NCBI GenBank assembly: GCA_037892935.1
Contig: JAYXKI010000006.1
Coordinates: forward strand, 124,001 to 188,000
Direction: 5' to 3'
Length of the DNA: 64,000 bases
Source of the DNA: Phlebopus portentosus
Lineage: Eukaryota; Basidiomycota; Agaricomycetes; Boletales; Boletinellaceae
Part shown: positions 14,516-38,224 of the stretch, piece by piece
Numbering within the stretch: the first letter of the stretch is position 1
How the letters are laid out: every line of letters starts with the position of its first letter
Notes under the pieces: model-generated
Database searches by the model: none
The model's input: only the letters and a program-made list of their open reading frames with translations
What the model was told of the DNA's origin: nothing
Translations under genes and position numbers: made by a program

Positions 14516-15620
14516 GCATCAGGAAAACAGTCCAAAGTATCCACTGCTACTCCCTGCTACTCCCTGTTACTCCCTACTACCTACTGCTATAGGCTGCTAT
14601 ATAGAGGCCTATAATAAGTTAGTAGTCTATAGTGATTTATCGTGACCCCCCTACTATATAGAGGCTTGTAAAGCTTTATAGAGGCCATAGTTACATAGTT
14701 GATATTTATTTATAGGGCTACAAAGTAGTAGATAGTACATATTGTCTAACTACCAATATTGTTGAATAGTTGTCAATAAGTGGGGTTAGAGTAAGTTGGT
14801 ATGTAGATGGTAGCAGGTAATAGTAGCAGATATGAGGCTATAGTTTGCAGTAGTATTGTGTAATTAGTAGTATCTATAGCGGATACTAGACTAAAGTCTT
14901 ATGTAGTAGTAGGTAGTCATAGATAGTAGCCAGTACCTATTAGAGGATATTATGTTATACCAAGATAGTTATTAATAGTAGTTTATTATAAAGTATAATA
15001 AACTATATTTGTTAGCCAGTATAAACTGATAGAAGGCTAATAAAGTGGTGAGTAGCTTATAATTACTAGTAGCGGATATTACTGAATAGCATACTAATGC
15101 CTGATAGAGATTCTTAGTAAAAGATAGTTGCTGATAACTGCTCTGTTCATAGTCAGACAGTAGATAGTAGCGCACTTAGATTATCATAGCTGCAGTTTAA
15201 ATCTATTCACACGCCTATTAAGCACTTCTGAGAGTGATCTAGATATATATAAACCTCGTAGGGATGATTAGAGTTACAATTAAGTAAGGAATGGCGGTGA
15301 ATTAAAAGAGCAAGAGAGGAAAATAAGATGAAAGAAATATATAGGTGCTATCAAATGGTGAGCTAGCTGCTTCTAGAAGCTAATAGAAGCTGCTTACATT
15401 ACTGGAACAGCTAGATGAGCCTAGTCAAAGACGCCCTTCCTATAGCCAGAGTACGTCATATTTAGTCACTACTATTAGTAATGAGTGGCGAAATCACAGT
15501 AGAAGGTTCACTTTGACTTACCTGTCAGTACGCCTTCTCTTATTAGGGTTATAGCCTACTGCCACCTTCTTCTGCTCTAAGATGTGCTTTCCCCTTGAAG
15601 ATAGATGAGCTCTACTTAGA
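14516..15620. repeat. A-end subterminal region of element 1 (TATAG-rich, TACTCC repeats)
   Basis: Starts with the terminal inverted repeat, followed by CTACTCCCTGCTACTCCC repeats and many CTATAG/TATATAG words for several hundred bp. The first ~160 bp match, inverted, the right end of element 2 (50,160-50,320), including GATTTATCGTGACCCCCC. Repetitive subterminal blocks are typical transposase-binding regions in CACTA-like elements; that role is inferred. No gene is seen. Confidence 0.7.
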
Positions 15621-15657
15621 TGTTAATAGAAGACTATATAGTATATAATACTAATGC

Positions 15658-17718
15658 TTACTTTCCCATATTAAGTATCGCTGTTCGTACTTTCTCGAAT
15701 GACTCGGGTTCATTTATCTTGAAGAGCTTTATATTCTCCTTCAACACATTGACAGACGACCTGTACCTGGCACTTGAAAAGCTAGTTGAAGCTCTCTGTG
15801 CATTTCCAGAAGAATGCTCTTCTAGTGCGCAACAGATCTAACTTATGTTAGCTCTCAAATAGGCTTCTTTACAGTAAAGCAACTTACAGCTTGTGTAGCT
15901 ACTGCGATGAGATGGATTGGTATTGGCCGGACCCAGCCTGGTTGGCGCTCAGAGAGAGCTACCAAATCCTTGGTATGTGTAAAGACTGTTCTCGCAATGA
16001 GCTCATGAATGGCTTCATGGGAGTAAGGATCCTCTTTATCACTCTGAGACGTTGAGATATGAGTTCACTGCTAAGAAAAAGTTGGCAGACGTACATCTAA
16101 GGTGGCAAACATGTAGTTGCTGCTCGGCTCCTCAAGCAAGTCACCTATCAGTGCTGCTACACGGCCTTTCTTTGCTGCTTTAAGAGCCTTTCTCATCGCA
16201 GTTTCCTTAACCTCCTCAGTGATCTTGTCAGAAAGCTGTTCAATACGACCTTTGTAAATGTCTTTGACATCTTTATCATTTCGGCCTGGAGTGATTGAGT
16301 AGTACTCGAGCACTATCTCTCTGGCAGTTCTTATAAATGCCCCTTTTATGGTAGTCGTCTCTCTACTGAGCTAAAGGCCAGCTGTCAATTGTAGCAATGC
16401 CATATATTGAAGTACTTACACAGTCTATCATTCGGTTAGTTGTTGGTATCTGCTCCTCCGAAAACTCTAGAAAGTAAACTCGGCTAAGCACTTTGGACGC
16501 AGATCCACTCCTATAAAAGCTACTCACCATTTTGGTTATTACTACCCAATTGCTGCCTTGCTTTACTCAGTACGCTGCGCTGAGTAGATGACTGTGTATG
16601 GTAGTCTGGGAAAAACTGGTAGGCAAGCGTATATAGTCTAAGCATGCCAGATGCAGTAATCATAAGTAGCTTCTCTGGACCCTCGAATTTGGACAGAAAG
16701 TGGTCATCCTTCGCTCGACCTGGCTCTGTCCTTTGTTAGTAACAGCTTGTAATAGCTGGTAGACACTTACCTTGCTCAAGCCTTGACTTCCGCTTTCTCT
16801 GAGCTTTTCTATGCTGCTTGCCATCCTTTCCAGAGGGATCGTCACTTAGGTTGCCCTCGCTCTCCATAAAGACCTCTTGATTAGACTTTAGAAGTTTCTT
16901 AACACTTGTGTTTCAGCCCTTGTTTTGAACTGCCTCCCAGTCGCTATTGTCAGTAGAGTAGGCCTCTTCCGCACCCTTGCCCTTGTGGTAGCTTCCACTA
17001 CCATCATCGCTCCCACCACCATCGTCACTCCCACACCCATCCTCACTGCTGCTGCTATCTTTGCTGGAGTTTTCACCGCTGTCCTTCTCAGCTTCATCTT
17101 GATCTTTAACCTCATCCTCGCTAGTCCTCTCGTCGTCTCTCTGCCCTCCACCATCATCGTAAAAAGTAGCACTGTCCTGCCTGAAATCCTCTATCTGGCT
17201 ATCGCTATGATTGCATAAGGAGGGCTGGGGCTCTAACCACCAATATCAGATACATCTTAGATAGATGGGCTATAGGCTCACCGCTACATCCCTGTAAATT
17301 AGTCTGGAAACCCTCTCCCTGCTGCAGTGCTACTTCTTCTATAGCAGTAGCCCTGCTGCCTTCTAAGGCAGTGGCATGCTCCTCCAGATACTCTGGAGAG
17401 GGAAGCTGTCCCCTTGAGCGAGTTGTTCTCTTTAAGTAAAAAGGTGCAGTGCGTTATCACTGGGTTCCTGCAAGAATGAGGTGCTAAGGCTTACCTGATA
17501 GGCTAGAGGTGCAGAGTGCAGCTTCTCTTGATTGCCAATCCTTGATTCTGGCTGCTGCTACTGCAGGGTTAAAATGCCAGCAACTCTTAATGGTGTAAAT
17601 CTCCTTACCGCAGCTGCTCCTGCCAATTGCCTGAGTTTTCTGGGCTTTGCTATGATAAGGATGAGATAAGCTTGCAAGTGCTGTAAAGATTGAGGAACTT
17701 GCCAGCTCTAGGAGGCAT
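15658..17718 (-). CDS. Multi-exon acidic protein with DUF6532-like C-terminal domain (tentative)
   Basis: Start chosen at ATG 17,718 (MPPRAGKFLNLY); the frame ends at TAA 15,658-15,660. Exons on the minus strand join through good GT..AG sites (GTAAGT after SRLEQ near 16,770; GTGAGT near 16,535; GTAAGT near 16,425 and 15,880). The translation gives an acidic Asp/Ser/Gly-rich segment (16,920-17,170), a basic KRKSR patch like a nuclear signal, then a helical domain including LMITASGMLRLYTLAYQFFP and a late segment GWVRPIPIHLIAVATQA. This order resembles DUF6532 proteins common in Agaricomycetes, but that assignment is from memory of the family's look and is uncertain. It sits between the A end and the TET/JBP gene, same strand. 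Some exon boundaries in the first third are unclear. Confidence 0.5.
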
Positions 17719-18196
17719 CTTAACAGGCTAGGGAGGGGAGGAAGGTGGGGGGGGCAGTAGCGGTACGTATGCTACATGGCAGTTGTAGTGGGCGGGTGAA
17801 AAAGAGGCCAAGCAATAGCCGAGATTGGCTAAGCTACTGCGGTTTGGCCGCTCACTTTGGCTTACTAAGAGCAGGCCCTTGTAATACGCAGATGCAAACC
17901 TAAGCTGCAAGTAGACATGGAATATGGCAGCAGTGACAATCAAGTCTATATTGTAAACGACAAAGCAAAAAAATAAAGCAAACAGGAAACTGTAAATTAT
18001 TTTTTGCCATAACCTAAGCGACAATCTTATCCTAGAGAATTTGAGTGTTATGTTATTTTGTCAATCAGAACGGCTGTTTAGACAGGTAGTTCTGAGTAAA
18101 GTAGCTTACATTGCTGGTAAAGTGCTAGCCCTTATCAGGCCTGATACCAGAGCCTTGCCAACTCTATCTGTTTTCATACATTAGGACTGGCGCAGA

Positions 18197-18505
18197 TCAG
18201 TCGAGAAAAAGTCTTACAGCAAGAGCATGCACAAGGTAGTCCCTAATTACTGGAGGTGCCTCCTGGATGGCTGTGGTTCTGAGCGCAGTGTAGATGCTGA
18301 ATGCTGCTAGACTTGCAGGTTGAAACGTTCCAAGTCTAAATTCCAGCCACATGAAAGTCGTCCAAAGGCTAAACTCCTCGTATGTAATATGATGCCTTGA
18401 CAGGGGTTCGTGCTGTAGAGCTAGCTGGGCATCCTCGACGAATGGCTCTAGGCTGAGCTGGGAGAGGGCACGCCTGCCTTGTGAGTGGGGGCACCTAGTT
18501 GGCAT
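18197..18505 (-). CDS. Hypothetical 102-aa protein
   Basis: An ATG-to-TGA ORF on the cargo strand between the TET/JBP gene and the acidic gene. It is a Leu/Ala-rich, probably helical protein with no motif I recognise. A GTAAGAC donor-like sequence overlaps its end, so it may instead be one exon of a larger gene, possibly the downstream end of the TET/JBP transcript. Confidence 0.3.
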   Translation of the reverse strand: MPTRCPHSQGRRALSQLSLEPFVEDAQLALQHEPLSRHHITYEEFSLWTTFMWLEFRLGTFQPASLAAFSIYTALRTTAIQEAPPVIRDYLVHALAVRLFLD

Positions 18506-18634
18506 GATGTTTGTTGCTAAGAGCTAAGTTGTTGCCGAGGCATGCCTGCTGATGTGGAAAATTCTGCTGACTAAGCTATCTGCAGCAATTTTCCAGTGGC
18601 AGTGGCAGCCTTCAATTCTACCCTACTAGATCAG

Positions 18635-20427
18635 CTATGTACAGGTTCTTATACTCTGGAGATCCTCCAGGGTGGAGTAAAGGCACCACCCCTCACATGA
18701 ACGTCTATATCCAGCCTCTGCCTCCTCCTTTCTCTCTTTATAACTTCTGCACCCTGCTGTCTTATGCCCCTGAGCAATATGCTGAAAGTTTGCCCCAGCT
18801 GTAAAAAGAACTACTGATCTCCTGCTTGAGTCATTGGCAATTGGAGCATTCCTATGTGTTAGGGCTGCTGATGGGAACAGTACGACATCTCCAGGCCTAA
18901 GTTCAATGATGACCTTCGCCTCCTTGAACATCAGCTGTCCAGAATTTCTCCAGTCAAAGCACCCAAAGACACCGACACAGCAGAGGCCAAAAAATAAATT
19001 CTTTGCATCCCTGTGCCAGCATGTTGCAACCTCCCCACCTAAGTTAAGAGCCATAGAGGAGAACTGTGATTTAAGAAGCGCACTTGCTGTTATGCTGTTG
19101 TGACTCGCGGTGCATCGCTTTTCTCTCTCATAGAGCTCAGATATGAGTGGAAACCAGGTCTTGAAGGTGCCTGGCAGCAATGAGAACTGGCTAGTAGCAA
19201 TTGCCAGGACAGGTCAACTTACTAGAAACAAATCCCAAATAATGCTCTACGCTGGCATCATTTTGGAATTTTTGCAGAGCTTCTACCCTGCTATCCTTGA
19301 CCTTTACAGTCACAGGTTGCTATAGATATATGCTAAGTGAGTCTCATTCAGATAGAGAGAGGCTCTCTGCTTACTGATCGTCCCCCTCCATGTGCAGCAT
19401 CACCAAATACAAAACTTGGGAACTCCCCTCGTCTGTGATTAAAGAGATCCTTGTTCCCAAGGTTAATTGCCGAGCTAAATTCATCCATGGCTTTCTCAAC
19501 CCCAGTCACAGTGCGGTCCCAGTTGTTGGGTGTTCTGGCTTTAACAGCAAAAACTCGCCTCCCCCTGTCTAACAAGACCTGTGCCCTCCTTGATGGCCCA
19601 TGTTAGAATAGAAGTTAGGAATCCAACAGCAACTTACCTGGGGTCATTTGGAATATAGCGCCACCCCTCATGCTCTACAAGCCGTTTTATCTCGCTGCCA
19701 TCCAAGGATGTAACTTCTGGCCCTGTACCTACATCTACTGCTCAGCAATTTTTTTAGCAAATGTAGCAATGCACCTACTGTCGCCTAGGCCTATCCAACC
19801 TGGCCCTGTCCCTTGAAGATGGTGGACATCTAGGTCTACCACATACTCCTGTGCACTTAAGACTGGATCACCTAGCGGAGCTCCAATAGAACCTCTGTAA
19901 TGGCCTTCTGGCTTTGGAGAAGCTGGGGTGTTGAATGTCGGTTGACTACCAGGTGATGGGCTGTGCTGAGCAAGACTTGTAGGAGAATAGCTGGCCACTC
20001 ACTCCTTAACCTGCTCCATATGTTGCCTGTGTCGCTTGACATGCTTCTCACGAGATGCCCTGCCTCTCAGACGATTTTTTCGTTTTGAAGCGATGGATGG
20101 TGAGGGCACTTCTGCCAACTCTTCTAGTCCTTGAGGGATTAGCTGCTCACCAGGTAGGCCTGGAGCCCTTAAGCTCGCCTGCAAACCCAGTCTCAATGCA
20201 CCCTCAGATTGGCAAGCAGGCTTTATAACTGATGCTTGCAGCGATGTGCTGCTCTCATTTCGCTGGCCAGCACCAGCTGCCTTAGACTTAATAGAAGTAC
20301 CTGCTGCCATCTCTACCTGTAAAATAGCGCTCAGTGCTGGCCTGACTACAGAGGACTGGTGAGATTCAGGGCTGTGGATGGCTGGCGGAGTGCTATGGCA
20401 TGCCCAGCACAACCCCCAACCTCCCAA
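18635..20427 (-). pseudogene. TET/JBP-family 2OG-Fe(II) dioxygenase carried by element 1
   Basis: Proposed exons (minus): 20,427-19,735; ~19,720-19,635; ~19,591-19,375; 19,301-19,223; 19,190-18,635. The last exon has the double-stranded beta-helix core of fungal TET/JBP proteins: HxD iron ligands as HRD (codons 19,015-19,007), GDVVLFPSAALTHRN with the distal His (18,856-18,854), and an Arg-containing RRSVVLFTAG for 2-oxoglutarate. The preceding exon has the family's HRRGEFPSFVFGDAAHGGG segment. The N-terminus is a Ser/Pro-rich region with a basic KRHRQH patch. TET/JBP enzymes oxidise 5-methylcytosine or thymine in DNA in the nucleus. In basidiomycetes they are often linked with KDZ-class transposons. 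An in-frame TGA (19,999-20,001) and unclear joining near 19,735 suggest a damaged copy, although the catalytic exon itself is intact. Confidence 0.75.
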
Positions 20428-20436
20428 GCTGGCTCA

Positions 20437-20996: not shown

Positions 20997-21060
20997 TGCA
21001 GTCGACGTGTCCGCAGTTGGATGCTATACAGCAGTATCACGTGCTAATTACTATACACAT

Positions 21061-24000
21061 CTATTGCCAGCTATGCCTGCCATTATGGCGATGGTCTACA
21101 CAAGTTACTTTAATGCTTCTACCGTCATTGGCCCAGCTATTTCCGACTTCTTTTGCCAACCTCACTTCAAAGTCCTTCACTATTCTGAAAAATTCATCCT
21201 CTGCGCTCATGAGAGCGTCAGAGGCGGCCTCCTCCATGCGATCCACGACGCATCTTAGCGCACCCCTGATTAGTGGATAGTCCAATGCAAACTCCCGAGT
21301 TTTTTGCCATGCATCTGTGTCGTCCGGGCAGCACTCGGGTTGCAGCTGATCAATGTGTGCATTTATGATGAGTAGATATGCGAGGTCCTCGTTCGTCGCG
21401 CCCTTGAGCATGACTTTCGGCTTACCCAGCCCAACCCTCCCCTCTGCATCCGGCGGTGTACCTGAACCGCAGCGTTCTGCCAAAGAAGCAAGGCATTTTG
21501 CGAGCATAATGGGTGATGTATTGTGCAGGACGTTTGTGCTTGTCCTGCCGAGATAGTGCACTCGTAGCAGCCCCACGAGCGTTTCCTTCATGGACGAGAG
21601 AGAATAGAAGTGAGCTCCAATTACCGTCGAATGGACCAGCGTAACAACGAAGTGACTAGTTCCAGGCTTCATTAAGCTGCAGCAAAGCGTGAGCCGTGTC
21701 GAGGTGGGTTAGAGGGGGTTACTTACAAGGTATCTCCCCTTTCCAGCAGTACGGCGTCGCATGCTAGACGTCCGTCGCGCTCTTCTTGCCAGCCCGCCGG
21801 AAACAGTCAAAAGTCACGAGGGATAAAGATTAGTTTTCTGCCGTCAATCACGTGGAGTGCCGTCGCCATCCCTGCGGTGTCGATATGCCAATCCGACCAG
21901 GCTGATCTTATGCTGGCCAGCAGCCAGGACTTGCCAAATTGCTCAGGAGGGCAGGGGGTGGAGAATACGTATAGCTTGCTGTCGCGCACGAACGACTGTT
22001 GTGCAAAGAACTTTGACAAATCATCGAGAGGTCTGAAAGGGGCGAGGTCAAAGCAAACATCGTATGGAGGCGGGTAGTTGTAGGGCCCACCTTTCAAAAA
22101 TGTCTCCACTTAGAGGCATATCTAAGAAGTTCAAGGGGCGAAGGTGGCTAAGCTTGTCTATCTTTGGCTCTGCCCTAAGCTTAGCAGGCTTCGAAGGTCT
22201 CTTCCAAGGCTTAGCACTCGTTCTCCCTTCCTTCATACTTGCGTTATATGCCGCTAGCTTGTCTTCATACTCTGCCCTGTCCTTCTCCCATTTCTTCATG
22301 TCTTCCCTGTATTTCTTTAATGCCTCATTCCAGCTCTTTTCATCAACTTCAGTAGCGCGGGCAAAGTCTCGGTAGTTTCCCCTCACTTGCTTGAATAAAT
22401 TCTCCCCCACCTCTGTCTCTGTGCAGTCTTGATTTGTGTCAGTAGGTGGCCCATAAGTACAGTAAAGGACGTAGGCGCACCGTTTGCAGAGATTGGCACC
22501 TCAGTATCGAAGGCCTCCCTCATACCGCACCTCACACGACCATCAAATGCCTCTAGGTCCCTTCCATGCCGTTTAATAAGTATATGTCCACTTCTAAACG
22601 TGCTGCGCTGCTCAAGAATCTTCAAATTTTCCCATTGGTCTATCGAGTAGACTTGTACCGTCGCGTACGGTGCAGTCTGATAGCTCGTGTCCCTCATAAG
22701 AGCCTTGATGTGTCGGGCAAGAACTTGCTAAAAGAGAAAGATCAGCGTCAGAGGTGAGAAGTGGAGAGCAACTGTGCATCTGATGTGCCCTCTTGTCTCA
22801 CGAATAAACAGTGAAGCTTTCTTTCTCCCATTCGAGTCTATAGGTTTTCAACTTTGCTCCCTTCTTGGATGTCTTTTCCATTTGCTTGAATTTGATGACT
22901 GGAACATTGTGAATAGATATGAATTCTGGTTTTTTCTTTTGGAAAGTTAGCCCAACGAGGCGATGATGCAACTCGAGACTGCACTGACCTTGGGAATGGC
23001 CCAGCTTTGCCACTCTAGATCTGTAGCTTGTCCATATACATCGGGGACTGGCAGGCTTGCCGATGCTTGAGAGCCAGTTTCATTCGATTCAATGAGCGCC
23101 GCCGATGCTAGGGTGTGCCGGCCGTTACCAGTCGACCCACCAACATTAGCTACAATCTCCTCTTCATGGACATCGGCATCACCTTGCGATTCTGCAGGTC
23201 TCTCCACATCCGCCCTTCTCTCTTCATCTACGACCTCCTCACCCCCGCCTTCTTCCTCCCCATTGCTACTGGTGTCATCATCGACGACCATCTTCACGCT
23301 CTTGCGTTTCTTATGCCCCGCCTTCCTTCGTCGGCTGGTGGCTTTTGAACTCTCTTCTCCAGTCCTGATGCGCTTGGAAGGGCGGGAGTTGTCATCCCCA
23401 TCGTTGTCTGCCATGCATTTGCTCGACGGCTCCAAGGGAGCCCTGACTGGGATCCGTGACCATGATGCTAGCTTTATGGGCTTTAGCTGATAAGGCTTTC
23501 CACTGTTATTTTGCACCTGTGAATATGCATCGCGTAGGACTCCATCAACCATGGCCGAGCCATCACCTAGCAAGTTCACGCCTTTCATATCATCGACAAG
23601 GGTTTGACGGATTGCAGAAAGCAAGCGTCGATGAAGGTACGTTGTCTCATCAGTGGTTTCTTTCAGCATCCTTTCCCATTCCTTGGGTGTCACCTTGGTG
23701 TCTCTGACTAGCGCTCTTGAGTTCTCGAACTCTGCGTCCTCATTTGAACCGCCATCACTTAAGCCATCATCGCTTGCAGGAGGGTGCTCTGGGACCACCG
23801 GAGAAATGCCAGGCGCAGGGTGGGAGGAAGCTCTGCTAGGAGGAGGGCTTTGTTCTTGGATGTAGGCTTGAGCGCCTGGAGCACTCGTGCTTTCCTCGTT
23901 CCAGAGAGAGTCACATTCTCCTAAAATGGCAGAAATACCGGCTTCATACACCTTTGCACCGTAAAGAGTCATGCCAATCACTAGCCGCGACAGCATATAC

Positions 24001-25732
24001 TCGATACGCATTCTCGTCCTGTCTCTCTTAAGTCCCCGAGCAGTAGCAGTCTATGCTTCAACGTAAGCGCAGAACCGATGGAATATGCACAGGCGTACCT
24101 GGGCGAGGGCGAATAAAGGAATCCGCTCATGGGAACTGCTAACGACAGAGCTGCCCAGAAGGGTAATCGGCGATATTATTGACATGACGTACAGTGGGCG
24201 AAGCAGTTGAAAGTCCCCCGCAGTCTTCTTTTTCACGATATCCCCAGTGTCCTTCGAATTTGGGCTGTTGTATGCGTTACACTCTATTCGGTCTGTCTTA
24301 GAAGGGGAAAACGCACTTGAGTAGATCATATAGCTTTTTCATTGAGCCCTTCTCCGAACGGATCTGTTCACCTCTCTGCCAGTAGCATCAGTCTAAGCTC
24401 CGTACATATGTGGAATTAACTCACTAGCATCAAACCACGCAAGCCAAGTGCGGCATAGCAGAAGTTAGTAAAGACCATGCTGGCTCTGGCGCTACCCCAG
24501 GTCTTGTTCAGAGCCTGAATCAGAGATCGTGAAACCTCGTCTATCTGTCCAGGGCCATCACATTCCGGCCTAGCAGGGCTAGGGGTGCCATCGTTGTTAC
24601 CAGAAGCTGCATGAGCTTGTGAATCCGCATCAACGTCCATCTCATCATTACCAGAGTCAGGCTGAGGTGGGGTTTGCGTGGGAACATCTTTCAAGAGGGA
24701 CGGCATCAGCTGGGAGCTGTAGTCAGATTCTACCAGAGGCTTTACAACATCCATAGAATCAGCGCCCTCGATGAACCCCGCCCTTACCCAATCAGAGATT
24801 GCGTTGCCCTTGCTCCAGGGGAAAATGTATTGGTTATCGTTGTACCTCCAGGTGTGTTCCATCACCTCTTTGAACTCCTTAAGCGTCGTCCTCCAGTCTT
24901 CATATCGGTCAAACACCTTCTTCAGACTCTTGTGAATGCCGAGACTTCCCATACTTGGAGATTGCAGCGGCCTGTCGTCCTCGGCAGGGCACTTGGAGAG
25001 GGCGAATGCGACCTTGTCGAAAACGAGATTCTGGGCAAAGCCATGCATCCACTCTGAAGCCACGTTCTCCTTGATCTTGAGGAAAGCGGATCTGGCAAAT
25101 ACATTACCATTTTTGGCTCCGTTGATGAATTTGTCATTAAACTTGTGAGTGACAGCGTACAGGCGGCGGAGGAGGAATTCGGGTGTCCCAGGAACGTCCT
25201 CTCGACGGTCAACTTGCGCAAGTAGGTCCCGCACACTCTGTGGATGCATGTAGTAATTTGCTGTAGAGCTAACTGGGGAAAGTAGCATGGCTGCATCGAC
25301 CGGGCTCGGGCCACGCTGGAATCTCTCGATCAGGCTGTTGAGATGATCGCGAGGTGGTGGAGAGGCCTCGGGTGTCTCTGATGAAGTTGGCACGCCATCC
25401 AGCAGTGGAGAGAACGAGACCCCATCTGTCGTTGCATCACGCAACGGCTGGGTCGGATCAGGGTTTTCACCTGCCATTGCAGGAGGATGGGAGGTGGGTG
25501 TGGGCGGATCTGGCATGAGCGGATCTGGCGTGAGAGGAGAGTCTTGAGGCTGCTCTGGCGTGGGCGGAGAGTCTTGAGGCTGCTCTGGCGTGAGCGGAGA
25601 GCCTTCTGGCATGAGCGGAGAGTCTTGAGGCTGCTCTGGGCTTGGCAGTTCATCGGGAGGAGGAGAGAGAGAGCTACAATCCGTAGTTGGTGAGTCAGGT
25701 GGCCGTAGTGGCCCATCACTTAGGCCTGCCAT
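21061..25732 (-). CDS. JmjC-domain-like protein of element 1, multi-exon
   Basis: Start set at ATG 25,732 (MAGLSDGPLRPP); a Pro/Ser/Asp-rich region with PEQPQDSP repeats follows. Main open blocks: 25,732-24,416; 24,329-24,051; 24,011-22,947; 23,013-22,798; 22,697-22,383; 22,410-22,048; 22,109-21,807; 21,672-21,061. The block at 22,950-23,500 has a nuclear-type region rich in Lys/Arg and Glu. The catalytic region contains WSDWHIDTAGMATALHV, the H-x-D iron ligands of JmjC oxygenases (codons 21,887-21,879), and the last block gives KPGTSHFVVTL..GAHFYS with the expected distal His. Family members are 2-oxoglutarate oxygenases that mostly demethylate lysines. An in-frame TGA at 21,807-21,809 shortly after the HxD block, with no usable intron visible, may make it a pseudogene. 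It could be two adjacent genes split near 24,030. Confidence 0.6.
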
Positions 25733-26426: not shown

Positions 26427-29400
26427 TCAGTACACATGTTGATAAGTAATTTTGTCACAGAAGGGGTTAATGTGAAACTCCTCAGCCTCTTCTACTGCGG
26501 TGTCACATGTCCACTCTGGAGGGCACCTCTTCCCAAATCTAGGGACCAACTCAACAGGCCTCCAAATATCTTTCAGAGCAACCACTGTTCCTACCCTCTC
26601 TCCACCTCTCAAACACCTTCTCCTAACACGAAACATCTCTGTACCAGCATCCGGGCAAAACTGCCTTTCACCTTCTATGGACTTAACTGACTTGTCTCCA
26701 GGAATAAGCACATGCACATATGCAAGGGGCTCAGACCTCTCCTTTGAGTGCTTGTTGCAGGCTACAAACACCATGCGGAGCTGTGCCGCAAAGTGATCTC
26801 CTGACATTATCTAGTTAGCACTATGACAGCCTGGTCTCTGAATGGCTTACCAACAATCCCATAGATGCCCAATTTACTTGCACCATTAACAAGAACAAAA
26901 TTAAAGCATGCCGGTTTTAAGGCAGTCTTTGGACGTGCAGAAATTCGTTGCAGCGGTTGTGGAGAGCTTTCATCTTGAGGATCTTTAAGTTGGACCCTGA
27001 CACTCCACCAGATGAACAGCTCATTGAATGGCATGCGGAAACCTTCGAAAGGCTGATGATGGTGCTGATCCTTAAGGTATTTGAGGAGTTCTTCCTGAAA
27101 CTGGGCTGCACCATAATGAGGCTCCACAGAATCAAACTTGACATGGATATGGTCGAAGTGGAAGTTTAGCAACTAGGTGGAATTATCGCCCCGCACTGCC
27201 ATCTCATTCATTGATATGTCCTCCACTGGCTGTGGCAAGAACTTCTGGTGCAGCTTCTCTGACATCTGCTTTGTGAGGCAGGTGTTTTCCTTGGGATCTA
27301 GGTCTGCCTCCTGGGATGAGAGGCCAGCTTGCTTCCTACACTCCTCCCAAAGCACAAGCTGGCTGACCACATGGACACGAAGTAGGTTGTCTAGTCTGCG
27401 ACACATCTGCTCTTGGTAGCTTCTGTGGTTTGTGAGCTTGTAGGGTTGTTTGCACTCTGTGATGTGTGCTCTCTCCGACTGTTCAGTTGAGAACTGAGGG
27501 GCTGACCCCAACATTCGTATAGCTTGAACCACATGCATCAGCAGCTCCATCTTAGGAATGCAAAATTCCCCCCTCTTCTGCATTCCATCCCTCACCCCAG
27601 CATTCGAAAGTGCCTTCTTGTGCCTGTGGAAGATCTTGATGTACTTGTCCATATCTTTTAAGGTACCTGTCGACTGGCTCTCGTATTGTGCGGTGTAAAT
27701 AAAATCCTTCAGAGCTCGAAATGCCTTCAAGGTTTCCAGTTCAACCCTAGGGTGGCCCTGCAAAATTGCAACCAGAGAGCACTCTAAATCCCTAGTCTCC
27801 CTTAAGGAGTGTTGCTTGAACTTTGTGACACCTCGGGGAAGCTTCTATACCCAATACGTGGCTGAAGGGCTGATAGCCGCTTGTCATACTCCTCCTTCCC
27901 TAGAAGAGAGACTGCCCACTTGAGAGGGTGGTCGGCAAAAAATTTGTGCCATTGATGCAGAGCATCAGGAGCCAGGACAACAGAGGGGTCTGCAAACTTC
28001 CAGTCTCTCCAGAAAGGCTCCTGAACTCCATTAAGGCCCTTCTCCTTCGCAATCTTCTGAAAGTGAATGAAGTTCCGTGGACTGGTGTGGCTGAGGAGTG
28101 AGTCGATCTCCTTGAGCGTGCTCTGGCCCTTTCGTAGCTTATGTTGCTTTCCATCTCCAAAGTCAGCTTGCTCAGCAGTTGAAACAGGCGACACCCTCTG
28201 TGAAGTGCAGGCGATTGTGTGCATTTCAGATAGATCAGCTTGCAGTGCAGCAGCTATTGTCCTGACTAATTGTCTATCGCCAGCTGGGTCGACAATAAGC
28301 TTGGGGGTATGCGAGCATCTCTTCATGTTCTCCAGGATGATATCCATGCATCGGTGGTACAGCCGAGCTGCAAGCATTCCTGCCACTTCCTTATCCTCCA
28401 TAAACTTTGCAATGGGAATTTGGCCTATCAACATCCAACTTCGTGAAGTGGCTTTCCTACGTAGATCCTTGTGGATATTTCCACAGGTAAGATACACGGC
28501 ATGGCACTCCTTATCACCTTGGAAGTTCGTGAGGTGAGTCTTGTCAGAGGCTAGGATAACAAGTCCCAGTGTTTCACCAGGCGAAACCTTTGACTTTGCA
28601 ATGCTTCAGTATGCGAGCACTTAAGAAGAGGTTGTAATAACAGACCTGCACATCCCAGACTAGGTCACCAGTCATCATCTCTGAGTACAGCCGCTCTGCC
28701 CTATCCCCCTGCCAGACTTTTTGGGGCACAAACTCCATCTTTCCATTAAAAACTGGGTTTCCAAAGAGGTATTCGAAGCACTCCAAAGCATCTCGATAAA
28801 ACAGCTTCAAAGGGTGCTGAGTCTTGGCTCCAGGGACTTCTACTTCTGCTTCCTTCCAACATGGAGGGCTCGGAAGCTGCTCCACTTTCTTTCGCAGGGC
28901 ATTGCTGCTATCAAATGAAAGCGGTCTATCCTGCACCTAAATTTTTTAGTCAGTACTTAGATTTCATGGAGGAATTAAGGTGTACCATACATATTTAAGC
29001 TTGAAAAACTCATCAATCTTGGACTGTGATATGCCCAACTCCACAAGCCATTTTCCAACTTCAAAGTCCGTAAAGCAGGAGAAGGGATAGTATGGGTTGG
29101 CCCTTCTATAGCTAGCACATTCACCAGAGGTCCAGAGTCTGCTAAAGGTGTCCTCCCCCTTGCCATAGACCTTCCCAGCTCCTTCAAAGTAGTCGACTGC
29201 AGCTCTACTCTCCACTTCTGCCTGTCCACAAGATTCCAGATTCGCTGGTTGGTGAGAAGTTGGTGTAGGATGGTTGCCATTACTGGCAGCTTCGCTGTTG
29301 TTCAAGTATGCCCATCCCAGATCATTGTCTACCTCTATGACATAGTCAAGCAAGCCCGTGACTTCATTGCTGTCAGTTTGTTCAAGGTTTTTGTGCAAAT

Positions 29401-29569
29401 CGCCTGCGTCATGATGGGAGGGGGATCTGAGAAAGCTTGGCTGAGGTGTTGAATGGCGCCCATCCCTGACATTCTCTCTGCATCTGCTGACTTTGATATG
29501 CCTGGTGACATCAGCTGAATTGTTGAAAGTCTTGAAGCATGATGGACACCAGTTGCTAGAGATGGGCAT
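26427..29569 (-). pseudogene. Plavaka-family transposase, multi-exon, one internal TAG
   Basis: Start set at ATG 29,569 (MPISSNWCPSCFKTF), an N-terminal C2HC-type zinc finger ending HIKVSRC. Further blocks: 28,936-28,574, about 28,570-27,802, 27,763-26,807 and the last exon to 26,427. The block near 28,545 reads LASDKTHLTNFQGDKECHA followed by YLTCGNIHKDLRRKA, highly characteristic of Plavaka transposases of Agaricomycetes, and DALHQWHKFF and GSAPQFSTEQSERAHITE follow in the family's usual order. The family is a cut-and-paste, RNase H-fold transposase related to CACTA/KDZ enzymes. A clear short intron (GTAAG..CTAAC..CAG) separates the last two exons at 26,794-26,850. TAG at 27,173-27,175 interrupts the frame, and a frame change occurs near 28,570, so this copy is probably inactive unless those lie in introns I did not resolve. 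Confidence 0.85.
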
Positions 29570-30598
29570 GTTGTTGGTAGGAGCAGAGAGCACCTTGTGC
29601 TGAAAATTGCCACGTCACTACCCTTGGCTAGTGTAGAGGTCAGCAGCTCACAAAGTTTGCCCATCTACGATGGTGGCTGTGGCTGGGGGAGGGTATTTAT
29701 AGTCGGGGACAGCTGTTACTTCTGGATCTGAGAGAACTGACCAGGTGCTGCTATTAGACTGCTGTGTCAGCAGCCCATACCCTTACAGCGCAGGCGGTAT
29801 GGGCTTACAAGAAAAATCAAAATCAGACATAGCCTTGATACGCACGTATATGTAAGGTCATTCCTTTGCACAGCACATTATGAGCTGAGCTGTACTACTC
29901 AAACATGGGATCCCAGCTGTACTAGTAGGGGCGCTGAGTCTTAGATATCAGCTTACATATTGCAGCACTCACAAAACATGGCAATAAGATATGATTCCCA
30001 AGCCTGCCCATATTGACATACTTAGAGGCCTGTGCCACCGCCAAAGCTTGGGCCTTTCTGACAATGCCAGACTATTTTTAGGACTGCTGTGAGCTGAAAT
30101 TTAGCACTGCATAAAATCCCTGTGGCCAAGAGATTCTAGAATTTTGCCAGAATGTAATTAAAAGTTTTTATACAGTAAAATACATGACAAAAATTCAGGT
30201 ATCAATGCACGTTTGTTGAGTTACCCTTGCACTATCAAAACCCCCTACTGGCCAACTTTGAAGAGCTGTCACGTGGTCAGATGTATCTCGACAGGATGCG
30301 TACGCACCCGCCCAAACTATCACGTGACATGGCACCCAACGGATGCATCCACACAGCAGGCAGCTGTGGAATCACCGCGGGAGATATATAATGGCTTATA
30401 TCTACATGGATATTGAAAGCACTGTTAAGATTTCCATTTGGGTATTCCAAGAGGAGATATTTTGAGCATCACCATGAAAGACTCCCAAAAGAATATTTTA
30501 AATATCCAAAAGAGTATTGGTGGCATAGATACTCGCAGCTAAAACGGTAACAAATAATTGCAATATCCAGAAAGGTATGGGAGGCTTGGATATGTAGA
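29570..30598. other. Non-coding region upstream of the transposase
   Basis: Should contain the transposase promoter on the minus strand. One near-copy of the GATGCGTACGCATC palindrome lies at 30,295-30,308, with a CACGTGAC just to its right. No gene is seen. Confidence 0.4.
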
Positions 30599-30726
30599 CA
30601 CACCGGGCAAAAACTCATTTCCAAGCTATGAAAATGCTACCCAAAATGGAAAGAGCCAGTCAGATGAGAGCTCGCCCGTTCCGACCAAAATTTCTAAGGG
30701 CTCGGAATGAGTTTTTGCCCGGTGTG
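30599..30726. repeat. 128-bp MITE with perfect 21-bp terminal inverted repeats
   Basis: Begins CACACCGGGCAAAAACTCAT and ends with the exact reverse complement (21 bp match). The internal ~86 bp has no coding capacity. The size and ends fit a miniature inverted-repeat element. No clear target duplication. Confidence 0.85.
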
Positions 30727-31331
30727 ACAGGAATGATATTCTGAGTTGCTTACAAGCCATGTAAAGTAGTCCATAAATTTTTTATTGGATTTCATGTAAA
30801 TTTTTTTCAACCAAAATTGAAACAGCCTTGGCATTTCTTTCAAACTGCGTATTTTGGGCCATTAGATTGAGGATATGCGGTTTGTTGGTCATTGATTATC
30901 GGTTTGAATTCATATGCGTGGCTTTTCTACACAGACCCAAAAAGTTCAGAACCGATTAAGAGAAATAAGTGCAATATTGCTATCTTTGTGAACAGCTTGA
31001 TACCTCTTCGTATGTGTATAGCCAGTGGAATAGGACTGAAGAAGACCATTGCATAGTGGGGTGAGAGGCACTGGCCGAATCTGGTAGCTGTGTGCTTAAG
31101 TCAACACGACTTGCCTATCGTCGTGCCCACCCGCCTCTAGCTCGCTGCCTACGCTGATCACAATCTACACAGGTCAGCTCATGGACACTATAGAAGTGGG
31201 TAAACATCTCCTGTCCTCTGATATCCATGGACTTACGATCTTTGCTCAATGGCACACCCAATACGTCACGTCTATTTGGTCACCTCGAATTTGATTAAAC
31301 CTACGCAGATCGCAAACAATACTCTCCGCAA
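30727..31331. other. Non-coding spacer in element 1
   Basis: AT-rich sequence between the MITE and the small spliced gene on the plus strand. Its right part would serve as that gene's promoter. Nothing else is recognised. Confidence 0.35.
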
Positions 31332-31752
31332 ATGGGTGTGAAGTTGTCGAAGACCGCGCGCCAGCGTGAAAATGCACAGAAGGATGGTGCGCAAGCCGCA
31401 ATCGCGGCTGGAGTGCCGGTGGACGAGTTGGGAGCAGGAGAAGTGCGTTACATTCTTTTTTTTATTTGTACATATCTACTTTCATATCCATGTCATCCTC
31501 ACTTCTCTGGTCGGAATTTATGTGTTCGTCTGCATTATCGAGTACGACCGGCTTGTCCTCAGTCTCATCATCCCGTATTTCAATTCACCTCGCCTAGTCC
31601 CTTCACGAGAACGCCCCCTTTGTCCTTTTCATCTTTCTTTTTCGCAGCGCTTTGCCCTTGCTTGCCCTATCGAGGGTATCATCGGTGGTGCGGTAGCCAG
31701 ATCTTCTGGCAGCAGGCAAAGTATTTCATTGGTGCTTGGGGAGGATCTGTGA
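31332..31752 (+). CDS. Small two-exon gene or gene fragment, 71 aa
   Basis: Exon 1 is 31,332-31,442 (MGVKLSKTARQRENAQKDGA...), exon 2 is 31,648-31,752, ending TGA. The 205-bp intron starts GTGCGT and ends in a pyrimidine-rich TTCTTTTTCGCAG; the two exons join in phase 0. I do not recognise the protein: it has a basic N-terminus followed by a Gly/Ala/Ser-rich C-terminus (IIGGAVARSSGS). Being opposite in strand to the other cargo, it may be a captured host gene fragment. Function unknown. Confidence 0.35.
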
Positions 31753-33302
31753 TTGGTCTTTGGATTCAAACTTTCAGAGAAGGCTGGTTGATCTGATGAG
31801 GAGGTAGTTCGAAGAGCAAAACCCCGACCTGAAGTTCGGGGTAGGATTACGAAAGCACGAGGAAAGAAAGAAGCAGAGCATAAAGAGGAAAGAAAGGTTG
31901 AAAGGGAAGAAGGTGAGTTCTCTTGTATATTTTTACAGGTGCAAACTGCCTATCCTTTTTTTTCTGAACAGATTCCGAAAGTAAAGAACGTACAGGGCGG
32001 TACTGTTGACCTTGCCGATTAAAGTAAATGAAGTGCTGTATAAGTGAAGTGCTGTATCGAATAATTCATTTGTGAAGGTATCACTGGCTCTTCTTCTGGA
32101 TATTTGCCCAAGAGTCATAGACAACCATTTGTGTCCAGAAAGAGCACCTTTCCTAGGCTGTGATAGAAAGATAGTGATCACCTGCTAAGACAAATGCCGT
32201 ATGCTGCCCAGATATGAAGCCAGGTGCAGCTATACGAGGTCCCAAGAGATGGCCTTCTTGACGTCCCGACCAAACCTCAACAACCTCGACTGACACATAC
32301 ACTTTACTCTTGGCTTCCATCCTTTGAATAACTCCACGGTTACCTGACACCGATACTGACTTTATGTTCTATTATCCGAATATCATTAATCGTGTTTTTG
32401 TGCTCCATCGTAAAACTTCCCCGTATATTTTGTACCGGTCTCCTCCCTCATTTGGGTTTGCGTGCTCTCATTTTCTCTGTTCTTTTATTTCAGTTGACAT
32501 TAAACTTGAGTTTCAATAAATAGTACAGTCCCATGACAAAAGTTTTGTCACCCATTCTTGGTGTAATCTTCATTTTTTCATGCTCAATTCAGCCCTGTTG
32601 TTTCTGAAAAAAATTTACAATCATTCTATGATATGAACCAACATACATGCAAAATTTGATGGCGAAAACTTGAAAACTGAGTTGGAACTGGAAACAGGCC
32701 AAAGTGACTATATGCACCAAATTGGCCCAATTTTTCGGTCTTGTTTGACCTCCAGAGGCTCAACAAGTCCTTGAAACAATATGAAATATTGCACATTTAC
32801 ATTTCTCATATGTAGGAATAACATATGATTTTTTCAGATTTTTGCGTCAAGCGAGAGAGCCTGGGCTGCACTTGCTGGGGTTGGAAAGTGGCAGTTTTGC
32901 CAATTTTCCCTTTTGTTTTGGCTATTTTTGACCTCACTTGAGCTTCATTGCCCTCCAGACTATTCCACACATGTAAGAAAAATCCAGTAAATGTACATGA
33001 TACGCAATACTATCAGAACAGCATGTTTACAAAGTCTCATGCTAGAAGCTTGTGTAGAAATACTTTTATGAAGAAAGGAGTCTCCGAGAGTCAATCATTT
33101 TCCCTATGTAATTTGACACCACCCGAGCTGTGTTTTGAACTCAATTTCTGGTATTTTCTCATGAAACTTCACAGGAATGTTACTTCTTATGACAGAATAA
33201 TGCTGATTTTTTTTCAGAAGGAACAAGTAAAAATTGACAGAGAAATTTGCAAAAAACATGTAAAAAAAGGGGGTGAAAACTTTTGTCAGGGGACTGTACA
33301 TG

Positions 33303-33368
33303 GATGCGTACGCATCCGTCCAAACTGTCACGTGACACGGTACCCTAACGGATGGATGCATACGCATC
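33303..33368. promoter_or_regulatory. Paired GATGCGTACGCATC / GATGCATACGCATC palindromes
   Basis: Two copies 52 bp apart, with TCACGTGAC between them and ATCACGTGA just after. This lies downstream (3') of the kinase gene. See the dispersed-palindrome finding. Confidence 0.5.
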
Positions 33369-33450
33369 CCCTCGACTGATCACGTGAAATTTGCCCTGCC
33401 GCTGCCGCGCGGGGGTGGATAAAAATTAGGGAAAATATAGAGAAGCTATA

Positions 33451-33487
33451 ACAACAACAACAGCAGCAGCAGCAGCAGCAGCAACAG
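33451..33487. repeat. CAA/CAG trinucleotide microsatellite
   Basis: Uninterrupted CAA then CAG repeats for about 37 bp just beyond the 3' end of the kinase gene. It is not inside a recognised coding frame. Confidence 0.9.
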
Positions 33488-33534
33488 TAACTGCTACAGA
33501 GCTTTTGCTAACAATGAGCAAGCAAGCAGGCAGC

Positions 33535-34605
33535 TTATTTGAAACACGTAAAGGACCAGCCTGGTTTCACGGCTAGATAAGGATGCTGGCGTAGCTCAGA
33601 TGCAGTTGGTCGCCCATCTGGGCTGATGGAAAGGCAGCACCTTCTAAAGTCATCCCCATCAGGCCCAGGAACTGCATCCAGTGGGACGCAGGGGGGCTCT
33701 GGCTTTTTTCCTCCTAACTAGAGACAACCGCAGCAAGTTAGTTAGCATGAAACAATGCCATTTCAGCACTGCTTACCACAAGAATAATATTAGCCACCTC
33801 TCTGCCCTCCCAGGGTCGATGGCCAGTCCACATCTCAGACACCACACAACCCAAGCTCCAGATGTCTACTTTCGCGCTGTATCCAAACGTTGCTCGTAGC
33901 ACCTCCGGCGCCATGTAGATTAATGTGCCTCGGAGGGGAGAGTGCATTTTGTTCGTGTAAACGTCGTCAGTGCGCTTTGAAGTGCCGAAATCTGCAATTT
34001 TACAGACCCCATAAGGACCGACAAGTATGTTGTCGCTCTTCAAGTCCTGCATATATGCTCAGTAAATGTGGTGTTACAAAACAATAAACCAGCTTACTCT
34101 GTGGATTATGCCTTTGGAGTGACAGTAGCCAATTCCTTCAAGAACTTGACCCGTGAACGACCGACAAACTTGGTCTTCGAACCTGCCATGCTCCCTTAAG
34201 CAGGCCCTGATAGATCCATTCGAGACATATTCCATGAACCTGGAAAACGCCCCTTAAGTGCCTGGTAAAGGTGTGCAAGAGGCACTCACATCATTTCAGA
34301 GCCATCCCTGCCTTCAAATCCCAAGTACTGCACAATATTGGGGTGGCTGAGGCTCCCTAGAATCTCACTTTCATTCCTTAACGCATCGGAGGCCGCCTTG
34401 CCTCGTATCTTATCGTCCTGGTCAATAACTTGCTTTACTGCAATTAAATCGCCAGTCGAGCGGTTCAATGCACAGTATACGGCCCCAAACGACCCTTTAC
34501 CAATGCACTTGCACAACAGATAGTTGATATTGGCTATGGGCAGGCCATTACATTACGAAGGCAATTCACCATTCATTACTTACACTCAGATGCAGGGCCT
34601 GCCAT
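33535..34605 (-). CDS. Small MAPKKK-like (STE11/BCK1-type) serine/threonine kinase, intact
   Basis: Five exons with canonical sites: 34,605-34,584; 34,533-34,290; 34,239-34,098; 34,046-33,777; 33,717-33,535. They sum to 861 nt, an exact 286 codons plus TAA, starting MAGPASESNINYLL. All kinase landmarks are present: Gly loop GKGSFGAVY, catalytic Lys in AVKQV, HRDLKSDN, metal-binding DFG, APE, DIWSLGC and the late RPTASEL Arg. HRD and DLK are joined exactly across intron 3. The protein is a bare kinase domain without the long regulatory N-terminus of cellular MAPKKKs, so it would lack normal upstream control. It lies alone between non-coding stretches of element 1 on the cargo strand. It may be a captured host exon set or a true element gene. 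Activity is likely from motifs alone, unproven. Confidence 0.8.
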
Positions 34606-35855
34606 TTATTCGTGCTGGAAGTGATCACAGATGGTATAGAAGGGAGTGTCGAAGATAGTGGGGATGGGAGTGAAGGGCGTGTGATTAAAACAGAGGGCAG
34701 ATAGGGGGTGAAGTGCAAATATGCCTTCGCACCATCATATTTTGATGTTTACCACTCACAAAAGAAATAGACGCTTAGATACATGGATGTAGGAGGCTAT
34801 CTCTGACGAAAAAATTCAATTTTAAGGGGTGCTAGAGCCCTCACTATACAGAAACAAGGCACTTGCAACTGGCAGGAGTCCTCCCCAAACCCAGATTTAT
34901 AATTTTATGGGAATGTGTACGTACCCATTAAACGGCTGTACAGATATACATGGGTGTTAAGCAAAAATTCTTCACAGATGATCAAAGAACGTGATGCACA
35001 TCACCACCTTGTATAGCTTTGGCCAGATGCGTACGCATCCGCAGCTTTTTGTCACGTGACTTGACTCAGTTGTTGCGATGCGTACGCATCTTGGCCTGAG
35101 ATGGCTTCCGGGATGCAGCTGCACTCCTATAACACATCAAACTGCATAAATTTTATGATGTATTATATCTGCAATAAATTCCCGAGCCTCGGATACCCTT
35201 TTGGACATTTTAAATATCTTTTCTGTGTATTTCACGTGCTTATATTTATAATTTTCTTGGTCTGCATATATAATCGAATATGTATAGACATCCAAAATAT
35301 CCCTATTACACCCGTTTGCGTTAGTAATGGTGCTCTGGATTTTTTTTTGAATGAGGAGAATTTGTTTTCAGAAGTGGATGGGAAAATAGACTTCGCTGTT
35401 ACAATCCACATCTGACATGCCTTCCACCTTTCCTCCGGCACTACCCATTTTGTCTTGAGCTCAATTTTCAACCAAATTGCTCAGAACAAGCTTGTAAATT
35501 AATCATTGACTGCCTACTGCCTGTCAAAATTTGAAAGAAAAGATTTGATTTGTAGAATAAAATTGAATACCTTCTAATCTTGAGGTAGTAGTGGGTAGGA
35601 AGGCACCTAAGGGGACCTGCATTGGATATCGCCATTGAGAAAAACTGTGGTTTTCTCAATCTATGAGTAACACATGTAAACCAAGTTTCAGTAAAGAAGA
35701 GTCATAACTGATGATTTTGTGATGCTATTGACCCTCAAATCCAACCAAATTTTCCACTGAGTCCAGTCATCACGTGTTATATTTTGTCTTTACTTCATTC
35801 AAAAAAAAAAAAAACACCTGGGAGTGCCATTGCTAACGCAAACAGCTGTAATAAC
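34606..35855. other. Non-coding region upstream of the kinase gene
   Basis: Contains GATGCGTACGCATC at 35,026-35,039 and 35,077-35,090, separated by GTCACGTGAC. Otherwise AT-rich. An ORF of 104 codons (35,101-35,415) has the Phe/Ile/Tyr-rich composition of AT-rich noise and is not called. Confidence 0.45.
35026..35090. promoter_or_regulatory. Two GATGCGTACGCATC palindromes flanking GTCACGTGAC
   Basis: Perfect copies 51 bp apart, about 420 bp upstream of the kinase start. The nested palindromes suggest dimeric DNA-binding sites; that is inference. Confidence 0.5.
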
Positions 35856-35970
35856 GTAGGGAAAGTATAAACTCGACCGGCCCACCACGTGACTGATGGC
35901 TCTGATGAACCCTGAGCTAACTTTATTTGGAAGGACCCTGTGGCAAAAATCTTCGAGGAGACATCACAGC

Positions 35971-36437
35971 GGGCAAACTGCTATTTAGGCCTGGAATAAA
36001 TTCATAACTAAATGACAAATGAAATTTGAAATAACAAAAGGGATTAAATTATAAGTAAAGTCATGTGAGAAATGCATAAAGAAATTTGAAATCTCATAAA
36101 GGAAAGATGCTTGCATTTCTTCATGTGCGACATTTTATATTATCCCAAGGAAGACATTTGAAGTTTCTTTTGTAATCTTGTCAAGGAAGAAATAACTCAT
36201 TGACCACAAAAGTTATTTCTTCCTTGACAAGATTACAAAAGAAACTTCAAATGTCTTCCTTGGGATAATATAAAATGTCGCACATGAAGAAATGCAAGCA
36301 TCTTTCCTTTATGAGATTTCAAATTTCTTTATGCATTTCTCACATGACTTTACTTATAATTTAATCCCTTTTGTTATTTCAAATTTCATTTGTCATTTAG
36401 TTATTAATTTATTCCAGGTCTAAATAACAGTTTGCCC
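35971..36437. repeat. 467-bp near-perfect palindrome (foldback/hairpin)
   Basis: Two arms of about 225 bp, starting GGGCAAACTG on the left and ending CAGTTTGCCC on the right, pair almost without mismatch around a loop of about 13 nt centred at 36,204 (between AGAAATAACT and AGTTATTTCT). Transcribed RNA would form a very long hairpin. No ORF. Confidence 0.9.
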
Positions 36438-36533
36438 ACTGTGCATGACTGACCCAGGAAGTTTTACATTTCTCCTCTCACAAAGAGGTTGAGTTGACTT
36501 GTACAGGCTCTCCTTAGATATTAGAAGCTTGTA

Positions 36534-37265
36534 TGTATTGTCACTCGCGACTTCTGTGATTTTTGTCACACAGAGCACCTCATAATATAAAAATCACCAT
36601 ATCTCACTCAATTCTTGACCATTTTGCATGATCTAAGTTGCTTAATTCATAGTTTTAAGATCGGTTTCAAACCTCAACAATTATAAATAGAAATGAGCAA
36701 ATAATGAGTGGGATATGTCGCAAAAGGCCGATTTTAGACACATCTTTCATGTGCAGTTTTTCCTGCCCTCATCCCTGCTTCTACAGTCCTACAGGCAAGT
36801 CCAAAATGATATAATTATTTTATTGTAAATTTACAGACTGACTCTGAGCTCTATTCTGTGTTGTATCTGCTGGTTTGATACATGTCTGAGCTGAGCTCAA
36901 ACCTACCTTTTCTCAAGGGCCTCCAGACCTCAAAATAAATTCATTCTTAGGCAATCTAATGTCTGTAAATTCATATTATGCCAATAGCACCACTCTGGTG
37001 CAGTCTAGGTTGTTGTAGCACCCAGTCTGAGGGCAGGAAAAAATGCACATGAAGGAAGTGTCTAAAATCGGCCTTTTACGACATATCTCACTCATTATTT
37101 GCTCATTTCTCTTCATCCGTGTTGGAGTTTGAAGAGGATCTTAAAACTATGGATTTAGCAACTTAGATCACGCAGAAAGGTCAGAAATTGAGTGAGATAT
37201 GGTGATTTTTATATTATGAGGTGTTCTGTGTGACAAAAATCACAGAAGTCGCGAGTGACAATACA
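36534..37265. mobile_element. 732-bp non-autonomous element with ~240-bp terminal inverted repeats, TA flanks
   Basis: Left arm (about 36,534-36,775) starts TGTATTGTCACTCGCGACTT; the right arm (about 37,020-37,265) is its inverse with few changes. About 245 bp lie between. The dinucleotide TA flanks both ends, as for Tc1/mariner-type insertions. No coding capacity. Confidence 0.75.
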
Positions 37266-37688
37266 TATGAAAAAGGCAGTAAGGCCAGTAGATAGCTCTT
37301 CCACCCCCAGACAGATTTACTATATGAAGGTATGACAAATACTTAGTAAATTATGTTATTGTATTACAAATAAGCTCATTTGCATAATATTTTTGTATTT
37401 GTAAGCAGCAAAAATCTTGTTGAAAATTTTCAGCTTGCTCTAGAATTCACGGGAGTAAGTTTGCTAAGTTTGACTTTTTCCTAAAATAGGAAGCTCATTT
37501 TACTTTATTTTTAGAAATTATAATGATCAAATTGTAGTTATAGGTGCCCTTTACACATCTTTGCACCCAGAATTTGTATTTGAAATGTTGTATTTTCTTT
37601 ATTTCTGTAGATGTTGTGTGGGAGGGTTATTGACCAAAAGGTATAAGGTGTGGCACATCACTGTTGGTCGAGTTTATACTTTCCCTAC

Positions 37689-38224
37689 CTTTTATATAAC
37701 TAATCTCTATTACTATCTGGATACTAATATAAATAACTTACTACTATGAACAGCTATATCTTTTTTTGAACTATGGACTATAACTATTTATCAGAATTTA
37801 TATAGAGATATCAAGCTATATTACATCATTGATTATTATTCATGTTTATGTACTATATGTTACTGTAAGATACTATCTATATGCATCTATATATTTCTAT
37901 ATATTACTAGCCATATATTAACTATGTATAACTAACCTCTATTACTATCTAGATACTAATATAGATAGCTCACTGCTATGAACAACTATACACTTCTTTG
38001 AACTATAGACTATAACTATTTATCAGAATTTATACAGAGATATCAAACTATATGATACTATCATTTGCTATTCATACCTATGCATTATATGTTACTATAG
38101 GATACCATCTATATGTATCTATATATTACTATACATTATTATAGTACACTATGTACTACTATAAACTACTATGGTGTTATAACTCACTATCCATTAATAA
38201 CCCAAATGGACTGATTTCCTGATG
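37689..38224. repeat. B-end subterminal region of element 1
   Basis: Very AT-rich, with TACTATCTATAT-like words, ending ..CCATTAATAACCCAAATGG and the terminal CTGATTTCCTGATG. Its inverse matches 42,512-43,150 of element 2 over several hundred bp. No gene. Confidence 0.75.

Follow-up and report, generated by a model that had tools for sequence, protein, structure and literature searches.

Plavaka transposons have been placed with the CACTA-related CMCT clade, and their PlavakaB group is defined by CATCA..TGATG ends and 2-3 bp target duplications (Kojima 2025, PMC12730594). The available text of the same paper describes PlavakaB elements with a TET gene (TET+ PlavakaB) in two Agaricales (Agaricus bisporus and Gymnopus confluens). 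On IS3EU, it describes a TET gene that adjoins one for an alpha-kinase. In the present study, a 64,000-nucleotide stretch of the Phlebopus portentosus genome (contig JAYXKI010000006.1; C6:124001-188000), hereafter the window, was analyzed, and the whole assembly (38.4 Mb, 23 contigs) was searched. The window holds a PlavakaB-type transposon, element A, with a transposase gene, two putative oxygenase genes (TET/JBP-like and JmjC-type) and a protein kinase gene between its ends. A related element with an Argonaute gene, element B, lies beyond its right end.

Element A and the TET+ PlavakaB elements are alike in the Plavaka transposase, the CATCA..TGATG ends, the short duplications, and the internal TET/JBP-like gene. 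JmjC and Argonaute are unmentioned in the main text of that report, and the comparison is one by description, without sizes or sequences (PMC12730594). In the TET+ IS3EU elements of rust fungi, a TET/JBP gene likewise adjoins the transposase and a kinase gene, but the transposase is another one, the kinase is an alpha-kinase and not MAPKKK-like, and no JmjC is reported in the available text (PMC12730594). TET on Plavaka is therefore not new, and its proximity to a kinase gene has a precedent in a different lineage, IS3EU. The initial annotation had regarded the combination with JmjC and a MAPKKK-like kinase within one bounded unit as not a standard description. As far as the literature searched shows, the presence of these two genes on a Plavaka element is apparently new, as is the sister family with Argonaute; none of the three was found in the accessible portions of the open-access papers searched (including PMC8290104, PMC9674265, and PMC13317346). 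The KDM7/PHF8/KDM2 demethylases appear to share with the element A JmjC protein an iron-binding core with HxD and distal His; unlike them, the latter lies inside a transposon and is known here from its core sequence. To our knowledge, the plant anti-silencing protein VANC is not an oxygenase, in contrast to the predicted cargo of element A. The VANDAL transposons with VANC would be alike to element A in that a DNA transposon encodes its own counter to silencing (available text of PMC5735166).

The ends of element A, read inward, are CATCAGGAAAACAGTCCA on the left and CATCAGGAAATCAGTCCA on the right, and the termini have the CATCA..TGATG form of PlavakaB (PMC12730594, section 3.2). The inverted termini proposed in the initial annotation were recovered as a pair recurring at seven loci, with the left end starting at 14517, not 14516. 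In the window, the 10-mer CATCAGGAAA had six occurrences where 0.31 would be expected, and in the genome 212, compared with 85 for the same pattern read backwards. The genome was searched with the first 204 and the last 225 bases of element A, and the best 31 candidates were scored for each, so the end counts are lower bounds. The left end was found at no fewer than eight places at 99-100% and at least 22 places at 78-81% over at least 177 bases, and the right end at no fewer than eight places at 99-100% and at least 22 at 83-88%, with shorter pieces in both cases. Ends were paired by orientation at a distance of at most 90 kb. After exclusion of four crossed pairings among 30 candidates, 26 pairs were left, i.e., seven A-type pairs spanning 23.7 to 84.9 kb and 19 B-type pairs. 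Two A-type ends (C6:317247 and C3:80404) were orphans without a partner.

Exact target duplications of 2-4 bp were present in 18 of the 26 pairs (A-type 6/7, B-type 12/19) and in none of the four crossed pairings; the estimated chance level is about 8%. Their lengths were 2 bp in 15 pairs, 3 bp in one, and 4 bp in two. CAGG, one of the two 4-bp duplications, flanks the window copy, where the initial annotation had also seen a short duplication; the PlavakaB definition gives 2 or 3 bp. The 25-bp flanks of the A-type pairs all differed, so the pairs look like separate insertions. One A-type copy on C14 is nested in another, which indicates repeated activity of the family.

All four modules were located between the ends of every A-type pair. 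The TET region (window 18000-20000) was inside 7/7 pairs and the C6 orphan; the region of JmjC and an acidic open reading frame (ORF) (21700-25850) was inside 7/7 pairs, in three pieces on C2, and the C3 orphan held the far part of this region. The transposase region (26300-32500; split into two pieces in two pairs) and the kinase region (33520-35900) were each inside 7/7 pairs and the C3 orphan. Of the copy C7:1639971-1670422, 19.8 kb was read, and it was collinear with element A of the window, with insertions. An 87% relative of the JmjC and acidic ORF region was also seen at C3:2731196-2734367, outside any detected pair. The genome-wide search called for in the initial annotation thus returned the same cargo set between the same ends in all seven A-type pairs, and the refuting condition set there was not borne out. 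This co-occurrence strongly supports one bounded unit, and we consider it practically certain that element A is a single cargo-carrying Plavaka transposon. The contrary explanation is that a small element owns the ends, with the genes in unrelated flanks, or that the two ends come from different insertions. It could draw on an internal CATCAGGAAA (26288-26297, minus strand), found at the corresponding place in several other copies, whose orientation could close off the left half. However, the match of this internal copy to the true ends is only some 11 bases long, no pair bounded by it was seen, and none of the seven pairs had just one half of the element between its ends. A small element as owner of the ends was ruled out by the seven cargo-bearing pairs, and the explanation as a whole retains a negligible chance.

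The exon models of the cargo genes were spliced by eye with GT-AG signals. The transposase matched Plavaka in Pfam (PF18759) with E-values of 1.3e-61 and 2.6e-22 in two exons, in agreement with the initial annotation. A link to KDZ transposons had also been drawn, for which Iyer et al. 2014 is reportedly the first TET/KDZ paper; no KDZ family was among the Pfam matches, and KDZ membership was ruled out by the Plavaka-type transposase. The kinase was likewise found intact as predicted. Its Pkinase match (E 4.5e-62) covers positions 5-263 of 263, i.e., a complete domain, the closest PDB chains were MAP3K2 and MAP3K5, and the gene was stop-free in 7/8 copies. A kinase relative of 66% DNA identity at C1:2487042-2488041, outside the pairs, may be the host gene from which it came.

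The TET/JBP-like model comprises the core without N-terminal exons. This core of 314 amino acids gave a Pfam Tet_JBP match (E 2e-4), and WHRD, LTHRN, and RRSVV were recognized by eye as its HxD, distal His, and Arg. Together, these residues form the motif of 2-oxoglutarate-Fe(II) oxygenases. The JmjC core of 489 amino acids matched PDB chains over the iron-binding core, i.e., a lysine demethylase 7 homologue (E 9.7e-6), PHF8 (4.3e-4), and KDM2A (1.1e-3), and showed HxD and the distal His by sequence comparison of the core. Homologue searches with TET and with JmjC found nothing in a database that is possibly poor in fungi, so absence is not implied. The coordinates of these and the other features are listed in Table 1.

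Table 1. Positions of features in the window, counted from its first letter, and of the A-type end pairs in the assembly (contig:positions)
Feature	Position	Strand	Basis or remark
Element A, PlavakaB-type transposon, roughly 24 kb	14517-38224		paired ends, transposase
Left terminal inverted repeat, element A	14517-14533	+	end sequence, genome matches
Right terminal inverted repeat, element A	38208-38224	-	end sequence, genome matches
Target duplication CAGG, left copy	14513-14516	.	pairing analysis
Target duplication CAGG, right copy	38225-38228	.	pairing analysis
Subterminal direct repeat, right end, two copies of about 215 nt each	37695-38141	.	
TET/JBP-like oxygenase core, open	18635-19735	-	exons 19735-19638, 19588-19375, 19319-19223, 19170-18635
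JmjC oxygenase core, one in-frame stop in window copy	21061-22700	-	exons 22700-22481, 22418-22091, 22032-21727, 21676-21061
Acidic and basic ORF, 367 amino acids	22947-24050	-	ORF list; no Pfam match
ORF, 468 amino acids, without Pfam match	24416-25822	-	
Plavaka transposase (partial model, DUF6830 included), frameshifted in window copy	26851-29569	-	Pfam
MAPKKK-like protein kinase, 5 exons, 286 amino acids, open	33535-34605	-	start, stop, GT-AG introns, Pfam
Element B, sister element, 7.8 kb, orientation opposite to A	42512-50320	-	related ends
HSP70 pieces, element B	44002-45409	+	
Argonaute gene (ArgoL1, PAZ, ArgoL2, Piwi), broken in window copy	46069-49177	-	
Paralogous empty site, element B	9385-9391	.	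TA duplication with one extra base
A-type pair, window copy	C6:138517-162224		
A-type pair	C1:2083793-2120558		
A-type pair	C2:1726003-1763732		
A-type pair	C7:1639971-1670422		
A-type pair	C7:1677691-1701558		
A-type pair, nested inside C14:380126-465042	C14:398341-422436		
A-type pair, longest, holds nested A copy	C14:380126-465042		

Several results weigh against a cargo that serves the element by erasing silencing marks. The Tet_JBP match scored 21.1 bits, below the cut-off of 34.9. No oxygenase was among the PDB matches of the TET core, and a fold prediction of one TET exon had a mean predicted local distance difference test (pLDDT) value of 39 and was discarded. The JmjC core had no Pfam match at all, including the Pfam JmjC domain. 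Of the oxygenase calls of the initial annotation, the TET/JBP-like one was recovered by a match under the cut-off, and the JmjC-type one by PDB matches, in a gene that is broken in the window copy. The TET core was stop-free in 3/7 copies (the window, the outer C14 copy, and C7:1639971) and had one or two stops in the other four, and the TET of the C6 orphan was frameshifted. JmjC was open in only 1/7 copies. By the partial model of 851 codons, the transposase had at least one stop or frameshift in 8/8 copies; the frameshift of the window copy was absent from the other seven. In all four genes, the split of silent, changing, and stop mutations was close to that predicted for neutral C>T decay, so that selection does not show between copies, which seem to decay freely once inserted.

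The majority base of the copies was open in all four modelled stretches, i.e., 315 codons of TET, 490 of JmjC, 287 of the kinase, and 539 of the transposase (the part of its model taken into this test), so the element that spread probably had intact genes. As a caution on this test, the majority base can mask changes common to most copies. The neutral-like mutation mix would also be seen if the TET-like, JmjC, and kinase genes had been picked up by chance and rendered no service to the PlavakaB element, and the HSP70 pieces in element B and the kinase relative on C1 look as if genes were simply captured. However, neutral decay after insertion would also be seen with genes that benefit the element in trans, and chance capture fits poorly with the open majority base in every modelled stretch. 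Two of the cargo genes are, moreover, both putative erasers of silencing marks, and TET genes are found repeatedly on fungal transposons of many unrelated kinds (available text of Kojima 2025, PMC12730594). We regard mere chance capture as unlikely.

Private substitutions were counted in the four gene regions of seven or eight copies, and 457/492 were C>T or G>A. The 742 CpG positions accounted for 264 of them and the 4309 remaining C or G positions for 193. The C>T rate was 0.356 at CpG, 0.083 at CpA, 0.046 at CpC, and 0.007 at CpT. This bias, most frequent at CpG, is as expected of methylated DNA, and the spectrum suggests cytosine methylation of the copies by the host. At the element ends, mutations were counted in rows of at least 90% identity (8/8 A left, 18/21 B left, 8/8 A right, and 20/22 B right; the B left end L036 was excluded). 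The C>T excess was weaker there, i.e., 67/14/24 (C>T/reverse transitions/transversions) at A left, 107/28/46 at B left, 31/4/6 at A right, and 104/48/79 at B right ends. CpG was the most mutated context at A left, B left, and A right ends, whereas at B right ends CpA (0.255) and CpC (0.226) exceeded CpG (0.111, 36 sites). An active hypermutation of repeats like repeat-induced point mutation (RIP), instead of slow deamination of methylated CpG, would also raise C>T outside CpG, as was observed at CpA and CpC against CpT (CCA 0.159), and the mutation load varied widely among copies. The cargo would then guard against mutation and not against silencing. Per site, however, CpG changes were about eight times as frequent, and a RIP-like process seems rather unlikely as the explanation.

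On balance, we lean toward a reading in which element A carries its oxygenases as cargo to counteract the silencing directed at itself, as judged from the sequences of the predicted enzymes. The repeated end pairs with the same cargo set at seven loci were directly observed, and the movement was probably performed by the element's own transposase. This enzyme would act on the CATCAGGAAA ends, move the whole interior as one piece, and duplicate a few target bases. The ancestor of the present copies would have had open transposase, TET/JBP-like, JmjC, and kinase genes, as supported for the modelled stretches. The host would methylate the copies, and mutation, mainly at CpG, would follow. The TET-like enzyme would most likely oxidise 5-methylcytosine on the element, and the KDM7/PHF8/KDM2-like JmjC enzyme would remove repressive histone methyl marks there. 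Erasure of these marks would keep the transposase expressed long enough for transposition, and in this sense we infer a benefit of the oxygenase cargo to element A. The kinase, probably host-captured, may tune expression or host signalling, which is the weakest step.

Other features of element A were noted. The acidic protein of the initial annotation was recovered as two acidic ORFs, one at 16913-17245 and the 367-residue ORF at 22947-24050, which may form the N-terminal portion of the JmjC gene. A near-perfect palindrome with arms of 233 nt (98%) lies at 35965-36443, and an inverted repeat at 36532-37283 has relatives at more than 20 further genome sites. The initial annotation had reported that removal of the insert rejoins one Gag-protease reading frame, which did not hold. 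A decayed gag-like stretch adjoins a decayed protease-like stretch by eye, but the frames of the joined flanks differ and contain stops; with the 4-bp duplication removed, the longest minus-strand frame across the join was 53 codons.

Element B has ends of 80% and 88% identity to those of element A, and in the genome its type was represented by 19 pairs and six unpaired ends. The stretch 42900-50320 was matched over its whole length at nine places, including the window copy, at 96-100%. No transposase was seen among the 10 scanned of its 27 ORFs of at least 75 amino acids, so element B probably depends on an A-type transposase. Among the best 86 of 103 candidate rows in the genome, 15 spanned the large exon of the Argonaute gene (about residues 156-486) and 13 of these were stop-free. 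Two stop-free rows, C4:1882642 and C4:1897022, were near no detected end and may be host genes. The ratio of nonsynonymous to synonymous substitution rates was 0.26 and 0.19 for C4:1897022 against two B copies and 0.54 between these B copies, values by which host selection and selection within element B cannot be told apart. RDG is the motif of slicing Argonautes, and the window and C8 copies have RAS at its position. By eye, a decayed duplicate of the ArgoL1 stretch seems to lie upstream of the gene (49130-49300 versus 48530-48700, minus strand). At three loci (C12:1562463-1565267, C18:88733-91534, and C20:329807-332608), an Argonaute piece (66-74% to that of element B) and a JmjC relative (35% to that of element A) lay no more than about 2 kb apart, which would fit a third mobile family with both genes.

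A shared counter-silencing kit may be imagined, in which A-type elements, with erasers of DNA methylation and histone methylation and a kinase, mobilise in trans the Argonaute-carrying B-type elements, whose ends are of the same type. Several silencing layers would be met at once, and an Argonaute without the slicer motif would poison host RNA interference. This extension is speculative and quite improbable at present. If the proposed role of the cargo is true, DNA transposons would use their own enzymes against histone marks as well as DNA methylation, and perhaps against RNA interference. Several near-identical copies in one genome, which preserve the cargo together with the C>T scars left by the host, make this arms race directly testable.

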